Shown: piece after piece, positions 14,166 to 16,440 of the stretch
Layout: every line of letters begins with the position of its first letter
Position numbering within the stretch: position 1 is the first letter of the stretch
Assembly (NCBI GenBank): GCA_027013225.1
Contig: JALUXU010000056.1
Span: forward strand, 1-41,031
DNA from: Acidihalobacter sp.
GTDB taxonomy: Bacteria > Pseudomonadota > Gammaproteobacteria > DSM-5130 > Acidihalobacteraceae
Direction of reading: 5' to 3'
Length of the DNA stretch: 41,031 bases
Translations under genes and position numbers: made by a program
The notes under the pieces: model-generated
Databases searched by the model: none
What the model saw: only the letters and a program-made list of their open reading frames with translations
Told to the model about the DNA's origin: nothing

Positions 14166-14534
14166 GTGGATACGGTTTTTCTGCATGGCCTGGAAATAGA
14201 GGCCCGCATCGGTGTGTATGACTGGGAACAACGGATCACGCAGGTGCTGCGGCTCGATATTGATCTGGCCAACGATAATGCGCGTGCGGCGGAAGCAGAT
14301 GACATTGGAGTGACAGTCGATTATGCGGCTGTCGCCGTTCGCCTACAGGCGTTGGCGTCTAGCCGACCATGGACTTTGGTGGAAACCTTTGCCGAAAGCG
14401 CCGCCGCGCTGATTCTGGAGGTGTTCGCCGCGCCCTGGGTGCGGCTGGTGGTCACCAAGCAGGTGCGTTTGCCGGAACGCACCGCGGTCGGTGTGTGCAT
14501 AGAGCGCCGCCGTGCGCAGGCGCAGGGCGCATGA
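14166..14534 (+). CDS. folB: dihydroneopterin aldolase
   Basis: Predicted 122-aa enzyme cleaving 7,8-dihydroneopterin to 6-hydroxymethyl-dihydropterin and glycolaldehyde in folate synthesis. Seen motifs: FLHGLEIEARIGVYDWE (N-terminal pterin-aldolase signature), VTVDYAAVAVRLQ, and VETFAESAAALIL with the conserved Glu. The C-terminal half has VTKQVRLPE. I start at GTG 14166, preceded by GGGAGCGGGAA, because it gives the family length; the open frame upstream (from 14049) overlaps the coaBC start and looks unrelated. The stop overlaps the start of the next gene (ATGA), so the two products are probably made together. Confidence 0.92.
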   Translation: MDTVFLHGLEIEARIGVYDWEQRITQVLRLDIDLANDNARAAEADDIGVTVDYAAVAVRLQALASSRPWTLVETFAESAAALILEVFAAPWVRLVVTKQVRLPERTAVGVCIERRRAQAQGA

Positions 14535-15265
14535 CGGCGGCGCGGCTGCGTTTCATCGGCACCGGCGATTCGGAAGCCATACGCTTCTGGAACACCAATC
14601 TGTTGCTGGAGGCGGGCGGCCGACGGCTGTTGATCGACTGCGGCTATACCATCAAGTATGCGCTGCGCGACGCCGGCCTCGGTATCCCCGACATCGACGA
14701 GATCCTGATCACGCATACCCATGCCGACCACGCTTGGGGTCTCGAGCGCGTGGGCGTGGAAACCCGCTATCGCTACCACCGTCGCGTGCGGCTGCATGCC
14801 GCGCCCGAGGTGCTGGCCCTCTTGTGGGAACACAGCCTGAAAGGCAGCATGGGCTTTAGCAGCGACGGCGAGAACCGACTGGAGGATTTTTTCGACGTGT
14901 CGCCGCTTCGCAAGGGCGTATTGCCCTTCGCCGGCCTGCGCTTGTCCTTGTTCCCGACCCTGCATACCGAGGGCTTGCCGAGCTATGGCGTCGAAATCGG
15001 CGACCGGGTGATCTTCACCTCCGACAGCAAGCCGCTGCCGTGGCTCGCCCGCGATTGCAGCGATCGCCTCATCCTGCACGACTGTAGCCTGCAGGAGGAC
15101 AATCCGGTGCACGCCACCCTGAGCGAGCTGATCGTCTTCTATCCGCGCGAAGTGCGCCGGCGCATGCTGGCGATCCATTACGGCGACGCGCTGGAGGCAT
15201 TCCGTCCCTGCGTCGAGCGCGCGCTCGGCGGGGTGGCCGAGCAGGGCGGCTGGATCGCGCTGTGA
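14531..15265 (+). CDS. MBL-fold metallo-hydrolase coupled to folB and folK
   Basis: Predicted 244-aa metallo-beta-lactamase-fold hydrolase. All five metal-ligand motifs are visible: His62, His64, Asp66 and His67 in THTHADHAWG, His145 in PTLHTEG, Asp165 in FTSDSKPLP, and His216 in LAIHYGD. The N-terminal FIGTGDSEAI and the absence of an RNase Z exosite insertion place it near the RNase Z/PhnP-like phosphodiesterases. HDCS (183-186) and VHATLSEL are also typical of that branch. It overlaps folB by 4 nt at the start and folK by 4 nt at the end, so all three are likely translated as a unit. A role in pterin phosphate hydrolysis is inferred from context only. Confidence 0.85.
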   Translation: MTAARLRFIGTGDSEAIRFWNTNLLLEAGGRRLLIDCGYTIKYALRDAGLGIPDIDEILITHTHADHAWGLERVGVETRYRYHRRVRLHAAPEVLALLWEHSLKGSMGFSSDGENRLEDFFDVSPLRKGVLPFAGLRLSLFPTLHTEGLPSYGVEIGDRVIFTSDSKPLPWLARDCSDRLILHDCSLQEDNPVHATLSELIVFYPREVRRRMLAIHYGDALEAFRPCVERALGGVAEQGGWIAL

Positions 15266-15798
15266 ACGGCGCCGTGCACAGGCTGGGCCATGTGATCGCC
15301 ATCGGCAGCAACATCGACCCCGAGAACAATATCCCGCGCATCCTGCGCCACCTGGTGGATCGCTTCGGTGGTTTGCGCATGAGCCGCATCCTGCGCACCC
15401 GTCCGGTGGGCATGGCCTCGCGGCGCGACTTCCTCAATCTGGCAGTATTCGTCGAAACCGATCTCGACGCGGCCGCACTCAAGGCTGCGTGCAACCAGAT
15501 CGAGACCGCGCTGGGGCGCAACCGCAGCCTGCCCGACCGCGCCCATCGCGACCGTCCCGCCGATCTGGACATCCTGTTCCCCCTGCGCCCCGGGCGGAAG
15601 CCGCGGGTGCGGGTGGAAGGCCCTTATCAGCGCGCCGTGGTTGATGACCTGTTGGCGGCGCTCGGCCTTGGGCCCGCGCCGTCCCTGCCGCCGGGGGTAG
15701 CGGTCGATCTGGGCGGCGTTTCAGCGGGCGAGATGCCGGCCGCCATCCACCGGCAAGGCGGCGCCGGTGATGAAATCGTTGTCCAGCAATGCGCGTAG
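15262..15798 (+). CDS. folK: HPPK-like 6-hydroxymethyl-dihydropterin pyrophosphokinase
   Basis: Predicted 178-aa kinase transferring pyrophosphate from ATP to 6-hydroxymethyl-dihydropterin. HVIAIGSNIDPENNIPRIL is the N-terminal signature. RTRPVGMASRRDFLNLAV and IETALGRNRS follow in the expected order. The metal/ATP motif reads HRDRPADLDILF: the DxD is present, but the usual GPRxxDLD form is altered, so catalytic properties may differ from standard FolK. GTG 15262 overlaps the preceding stop (GTGA). The last 26 codons overlap the 3' end of folM on the other strand. The tail after about residue 150 is not recognisably HPPK. Confidence 0.8.
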   Translation: MNGAVHRLGHVIAIGSNIDPENNIPRILRHLVDRFGGLRMSRILRTRPVGMASRRDFLNLAVFVETDLDAAALKAACNQIETALGRNRSLPDRAHRDRPADLDILFPLRPGRKPRVRVEGPYQRAVVDDLLAALGLGPAPSLPPGVAVDLGGVSAGEMPAAIHRQGGAGDEIVVQQCA

Positions 15799-16440
15799 CG
15801 CGCGATAGACGGGCTCGGGGCCGCCCTCGCGCCCCAGCGGGGTTTCAGCCAGCACCTTGGCCCGCGCCTCTGGGGTGTGCGAAGGCATGAACAGGATCGG
15901 GCCGGGGCGGATGCAGTTGACCTTGATCCGTGGCGCGAGGCGGCGGGCGAGGGACAGGCTCAGATTTTCCAGACCGGCCTTGGTGGCGCAGTAAAGATCG
16001 AATTCAGGATGAGGGCGTTCGGCAAAGATGTCGGTAATATGCACGATATCGGCGGGGTGGCTGGCTGAAGCACGCAACAAGGGCTCGAGTGTGGTATTAA
16101 GGAGCCAAGGCGCCTGCATGTGGATGCCGAAAAATTGGATGAACTGTGAGGCCGCTTCGCGTGGATCATCAGCGGTTGGAGAAAACGCCGATGCGTTGTG
16201 TACGATGGCTCGCAAGGCGGGAGTCATTGCCCGTACCGCCTCGGCCACCGCCAGCGAGCCATCAACGGTGGCCAGGTCGCCTTGCACCAGCTGTGCGCCT
16301 TCGGCCCGTAGTGTTTCGAGGTTCTCACCGCTGCTGCGGTAATGGGCGATGACCCGGGCGCCGTCTTGCAACAGCCTTCGCGCCAGGTGCAGGCCTACAC
16401 GTCGGCCCGCGCCGGTGATGAGAACAGGATCGGAAAACAT
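15721..16440 (-). CDS. folM: dihydromonapterin reductase-like short-chain dehydrogenase
   Basis: Predicted 239-aa NADPH-dependent SDR, the same size as E. coli FolM, which reduces dihydromonapterin and, weakly, dihydrofolate. LITGAGRRVGLHLARRLL is the cofactor loop, with Arg residues favouring NADPH. HNASAF, the catalytic YCATKAG (Tyr-x-x-x-Lys) and VNCIRPGPI follow in order. It sits convergent to folB-MBL-folK, overlapping folK by 78 bp, so the whole neighbourhood concerns pterins. ATG 16440 matches the family start; the frame runs 25 codons further upstream but those look unrelated. Ptr1-like pteridine reductase activity is an alternative. Confidence 0.87.
   Translation of the reverse strand: MFSDPVLITGAGRRVGLHLARRLLQDGARVIAHYRSSGENLETLRAEGAQLVQGDLATVDGSLAVAEAVRAMTPALRAIVHNASAFSPTADDPREAASQFIQFFGIHMQAPWLLNTTLEPLLRASASHPADIVHITDIFAERPHPEFDLYCATKAGLENLSLSLARRLAPRIKVNCIRPGPILFMPSHTPEARAKVLAETPLGREGGPEPVYRALRALLDNDFITGAALPVDGGRHLAR

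Follow-up and report, generated by a model that had tools for sequence, protein, structure and literature searches.

Removal of phosphate ahead of dihydroneopterin aldolase (FolB) is among the few folate steps whose enzymes are unsettled in most bacteria (PMC1971073, PMC13259868). The later dephosphorylation has been left to a nonspecific phosphatase (PMC1971073), and a 2026 review still calls the phosphatase acting before FolB and FolM unidentified (PMC13259868); in archaea, the cyclic phosphodiesterase MptB acts at this point of the pathway (PMC3087415). In a 41,031-nt stretch of Acidihalobacter sp. DNA (the window), which is contig C56 of a 2.27-Mb genome that is 99.97% complete, a gene for an MBL-fold hydrolase lies between folB and a folK-like gene. 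Does this protein supply the missing phosphate removal, as an earlier note on the locus had proposed, and, if so, which bond would it cut? With its overlap of folB in every carrier and its strong purifying selection, the gene is a concrete candidate, and the substrates to be tested at the bench are few.

Gene arrangement at the locus

Table 1. Features of the folB–MBL–folK locus, in positions of the window
Feature	Positions	Strand	Details
folB, dihydroneopterin aldolase	14166..14534	+	GTG start, TGA stop 14534; PF02152, 85 bits
MBL-fold hydrolase, Apyc1-like (PF23023), 244 aa	14531..15265	+	ATG start 14531, TGA stop
GTGDSE loop, MBL residues 10–15	14558..14575	+	in MBL gene
HTHADH metal motif (H62, H64, D66, H67)	14714..14731	+	in MBL gene
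folK-like gene, divergent HPPK	15262..15798	+	GTG start; PF01288, 63.9 bits, profile 1–91 of 116
folM-type pteridine reductase	15721..16440	-	convergent on folB–MBL–folK; carries TGX3RXG

The coordinates confirm the arrangement described in the earlier note: folB and the MBL gene overlap by 4 bases (ATGA), the MBL gene and the folK-like gene overlap by another 4 (GTGA), and folM faces them (Table 1). The ORF of folB is open from 14049, yet homology begins only at 14166, and the PDB homolog 3o1k aligns to FolB from residue 1. Both FolB and FolK exceed their Pfam cut-offs. The folM product scores 238.6 bits against NF005066 (dihydromonapterin reductase), slightly below the cut-off of 249. At their 3′ ends, folK and folM share 78 bases (15721–15798), and a comparable overlap is found in the other loci of family f1 (described below) and in L002. 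Directly behind folM, a further folM-like reductase gene stands in tandem in L002, L005, and L042.

The FolK-like protein keeps the DLD motif, and the C-terminal, ATP-side part of the HPPK family is not recognizable in it. FolK of the window may be a second, folM-associated paralog; FolK duplicates are known. If the folK-like copy lacks HPPK activity, the pathway served by the operon may be that of monapterin and not folate. Genes resembling this FolK adjoin folM in Aeromonas and Halomonas records and folX-folE-folM in a Vibrio record (L090, L091, and L092).

A prophage or defense island was ruled out as the setting, the scanned window genes being housekeeping genes. A defense-system scan of the MBL protein and eight other window proteins gave no convincing match, with one marginal PADLOC match at 13 bits.

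Fold and nearest relatives of the MBL protein

The metal ligands that the earlier note had listed are all in place, H145, D165, and H216 accompanying those of the HTHADH motif. Its likening of the protein to RNase Z and PhnP is accurate only remotely, Apyc1 being much nearer. The best Pfam match is PF23023 (Anti-Pycsar_Apyc1), which has a gathering cut-off of 50 bits and scores 136.6 over MBL residues 5 to 224 and profile positions 4 to 228 of 250. A PDB sequence search returned three Apyc1 structures at E values of 1e-34 to 1e-42, with the next match at 6e-5. When an AlphaFold model of the protein (pLDDT 86, pTM 0.87) was compared with known structures, the matches listed were headed by Apyc1 (Z scores of 29.2, 28.8, and 24.6), followed by MBLBt2, a PhnP-family diphosphatase, and YhfI (Z ~21) and by RNase Z and PhnP (Z 19). 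Identity as RNase Z or PhnP was rejected on these structural scores and on those against the NCBIfam equivalog models, which are 44 bits against a cut-off of 293 for RNase Z and 19.4 bits against 272 for PhnP.

The closest characterized relatives of the MBL protein are thus the Apyc1 cyclic-mononucleotide phosphodiesterases, not RNase Z or PhnP. Apyc1 enzymes cleave 3′,5′-cyclic mononucleotides with relaxed base specificity, and Apyc1-like host relatives exist that break down cNMPs with broad specificity (PMC9117128). With Apyc1 of Bsp38 (7t28) and Paenibacillus (7u2r and 7u2s), the MBL protein shares the fold over its full length, ~35% identity, the HxHxDH motif, and a counterpart of the catalytic E74, with which E72 aligns. 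Apyc1 needs both E74 and Y112 for cCMP hydrolysis; the position mapped by alignment to Y112 is F109 in the MBL protein. Relatives have Y, H, L, or Q there, and two of the Paenibacillus Apyc1 proteins likewise lack Tyr. The MBL protein is predicted to be an Apyc1-branch phosphohydrolase with a dinuclear metal site, and this type of fold predicts phosphodiester chemistry.

Distribution, linkage to folB, and selection

Scanning genome contigs with the MBL sequence alone turned up a single named relative. A search by profile, covering 369 genomes from the window's class and 398 from the phylum, brought in families f117 (two genomes) and f207 (four genomes), whose MBL proteins are 45 to 49% and 45 to 48% identical, respectively, to that of the window. 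The gene is present in all five genomes examined from the window's order, the other four proteins being 68 to 75% identical, and in two of three genomes of family f128 (64–65% identity). The folB-linked subfamily thereby comprises 11 genomes: seven in two families of the window's class (f1 and f128) and four in another class (f207), a placement not beyond doubt, given 8% contamination in two of the four bins and completeness of 73% in one, although every one of the four has the folB–MBL pair with the same gene downstream. Carriage in the second class is patchy (4 of 78 genomes), and the MBL gene was not found in G232, a genome of the same family as a carrier. A subfamily so rare and patchy cannot be a general bacterial solution, and its rarity points to a lineage-specific solution or a clean-up enzyme.

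Linkage to folB is constant among these carriers. In every f1, f128, and f207 locus, folB lies directly upstream of the MBL gene, and the folB stop and MBL start overlap by 4 or 8 bases; this holds for all 12 loci, in two classes, from the 11 genomes and the named MAG L002. Downstream, the divergent folK-like gene overlaps the MBL gene in f1 and lies ~11 bases or less away in f128, and in all four f207 genomes another gene, not folK, follows. The constant partner of the MBL protein is therefore FolB. Co-occurrence with folate genes, a check suggested in the earlier note, is seen for folB in all 12 loci and for folK in one class only. The gene that follows folB–MBL in f207 (L052–L055) is conserved and encodes ~500 residues, with an N-terminal part that looks cold-shock-like by eye. 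Long open frames in G229 and G151 hinted at a FolB–MBL fusion, which was rejected since folB sits in another frame.

The two f117 loci (L047 and L048; genomes G237 and G333) carry the MBL gene with no fol gene beside it. There it adjoins a gene for an alpha-E-type protein, identified by eye, and in L047, an EAL-domain gene lies on the other side.

In a maximum-likelihood tree of 38 rows, the folB-linked MBL proteins form one clade (support 90/90), separate from the Apyc1 proteins of phage and Paenibacillus and from the remaining relatives of the class, and f117 is its sister with weak support (82/28). The folB-linked set and f117 share E15, K42, R73, and E77 without exception, whereas the Apyc1 proteins compared have Phe, Pro, Glu, and a variable residue (Arg, Gln, Tyr, or Met) at these positions. 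D13-S14 and S110/D112 set the folB-linked proteins apart from f117, and the triplet D13-S14-E15 is specific to the folB-linked clade. Acidic residues anchor the pterin in other pterin enzymes, and we speculate that E15 might do so here; the loop of residues 10 to 15 is poorly modeled, with pLDDT <50.

In the two closest pairs, dN/dS was 0.077 and 0.053 for the MBL gene, 0.21 and 0.12 for folB, and 0.34 and 0.44 for folK, the folK values being affected by the folM overlap; wider pairs are near synonymous saturation, and their ratios are uninformative. In these closest pairs, purifying selection acts more strongly on the MBL protein than on FolB or FolK, and between lineages, its identity is mostly above that of either. 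The invariant overlap of the MBL start with the folB stop and the low dN/dS (0.05–0.08) indicate that the arrangement is more than chance. Together, the folB linkage across two classes at ~47% identity, the single clade, and the translational overlap are good support for placing the protein at the FolB step or a neighboring one.

Candidate reactions at the FolB step

The window genome encodes six Nudix proteins, one of which is NudB (165.5 bits; cut-off 103), so the triphosphate step is not missing. Every f1 and f128 genome tested has a NudB above this threshold, and none of the four f207 carriers does, nor does f117. For GTP cyclohydrolase, f1 has FolE and FolE2, f128 and f117 have FolE2 alone (neither enzyme was found in G233, which is 75% complete), and three of the four f207 carriers have FolE alone. 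Association with FolE2 in preference to FolE could have hinted at an MptA-like cyclic product; it was rejected, there being no pattern among carriers. The MBL gene therefore tracks neither a given cyclohydrolase nor, consistently, the absence of NudB. The known product of bacterial FolE and FolE2 is the triphosphate; a cyclic phosphate is known as the product of archaeal MptA. Cyclic dihydroneopterin phosphate reportedly forms chemically, and the open literature yielded nothing on this compound in bacteria, nor on a folB-folK-linked MBL protein.

The conserved coupling to FolB, the intact dinuclear site, and the phosphodiesterase ancestry make a pterin phosphate hydrolase acting at or just before the FolB step the best single explanation, which we favor tentatively and rate a little short of an even chance. 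An Apyc1-branch phosphohydrolase would have been recruited to pterin metabolism and would be made together with FolB. We infer that the enzyme acts on a dihydropterin phosphate, with two probable targets: a cyclic phosphodiester of dihydroneopterin (or of monapterin) and the phosphate chain in dihydroneopterin triphosphate; cleavage would free the side chain to reach FolB and, via the epimerase activity of FolB, FolM. The target bond is probably a diester or anhydride rather than a plain monophosphate: membership in an Apyc1-type phosphodiesterase family makes a cyclic or other phosphodiester chemically likelier, and MBL phosphodiesterases are usually not phosphomonoesterases. A shift from cNMP to pterin is made easier to envisage by the relaxed base specificity of Apyc1 and the resemblance of pterin to guanine.

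The archaeal precedent of MptB and the f207 carriers with NudB below the cut-off also favor a pterin substrate. The presence of NudB in the window genome and family, the patchy carriage, the FolE and FolE2 survey, and the f117 sisters, which keep E15, R73, and E77 yet have no adjoining fol genes, argue against it. The proposal of a missing pterin phosphate hydrolase is thus strengthened by a conserved, folB-specific linkage and weakened by the presence of NudB, the likelier diester chemistry, the rarity of the subfamily, and the f117 loci. As judged from the sequences, the MBL protein most likely hydrolyzes a dihydropterin phosphate, perhaps a cyclic one, to feed FolB, and is specific to certain lineages.

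MptB is an HD-type metal hydrolase unrelated to MBL proteins. As a dihydroneopterin 2′,3′-cyclic phosphate phosphodiesterase, it would share with the MBL protein the proposed reaction and the place in the pathway (PMC3087415). The narrower proposal that the MBL protein is the bacterial counterpart of MptB, hydrolyzing cyclic dihydroneopterin phosphate and passing the product to FolB, appears unlikely; if true, this route would tie a family known only from cyclic-nucleotide signaling and antiphage defense to vitamin synthesis. NudB (FolQ), the dihydroneopterin triphosphate pyrophosphatase, likewise acts just upstream of FolB but has a Nudix fold and is encoded elsewhere in the window genome. 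FolQ2 of Clostridium is similarly an unrelated phosphohydrolase found in folate clusters with a narrow distribution (PMC1971073); it differs in belonging to the HD superfamily and to another lineage, and its role is likewise putative.

The main rival to a pterin substrate, in our judgment a rather unlikely one, is a cyclic mononucleotide phosphodiesterase (cAMP, cGMP, cCMP, or cUMP) that sits in the folate operon merely for expression. The PF23023 match, the Apyc1-like structure, the retained catalytic motif with E72, and the broad cNMP degradation by Apyc1-like host proteins (PMC9117128) are what this reading would predict, whereas the folB overlap conserved in two classes, the departure of the clade-specific E15, R73, and E77 from Apyc1, and the outcome of the defense-system scan speak against it. 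The MBL protein might instead serve in metabolite repair: it would clear a putative by-product of the pathway, a cyclic or damaged pterin phosphate that would inhibit FolB, without being a required step. Such a clean-up function, which we also regard as unlikely, would reconcile a patchy, dispensable-looking distribution with strong purifying selection where the gene is present, and it is compatible with NudB in the window family and with tolerance of either FolE or FolE2.

The reading of the earlier note, a phosphomonoesterase converting dihydroneopterin monophosphate to dihydroneopterin in the classical missing step after NudB, is improbable. It accords with the folB linkage, with the NudB of this genome, which leaves only the monophosphate step open, and with the assignment of that step to a nonspecific or unidentified phosphatase (PMC1971073, PMC13259868); against this, the nearest characterized relatives are diesterases, and in the four f207 carriers without a clear NudB, the monophosphate may not be made. 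RNase Z-type tRNA 3′ processing or PhnP-type hydrolysis of cyclic ribose phosphate is disfavored as very improbable, for all the common fold and an N-terminal motif that weakly matches RNase Z models, with scores far under the curated cut-offs and structural similarity well below that to Apyc1.

An anti-Pycsar role is disfavored by clade and context, the protein falling outside the phage and Paenibacillus Apyc1 clade with no phage or defense setting among the window genes scanned; Apyc1 is found in a phage genome, whereas the window gene belongs to a chromosomal, housekeeping folB operon. Core metabolism can include proteins to which Pfam gives the anti-Pycsar name, and in automatic annotation, the label Anti-Pycsar_Apyc1 would misname this chromosomal operon gene as antidefense.
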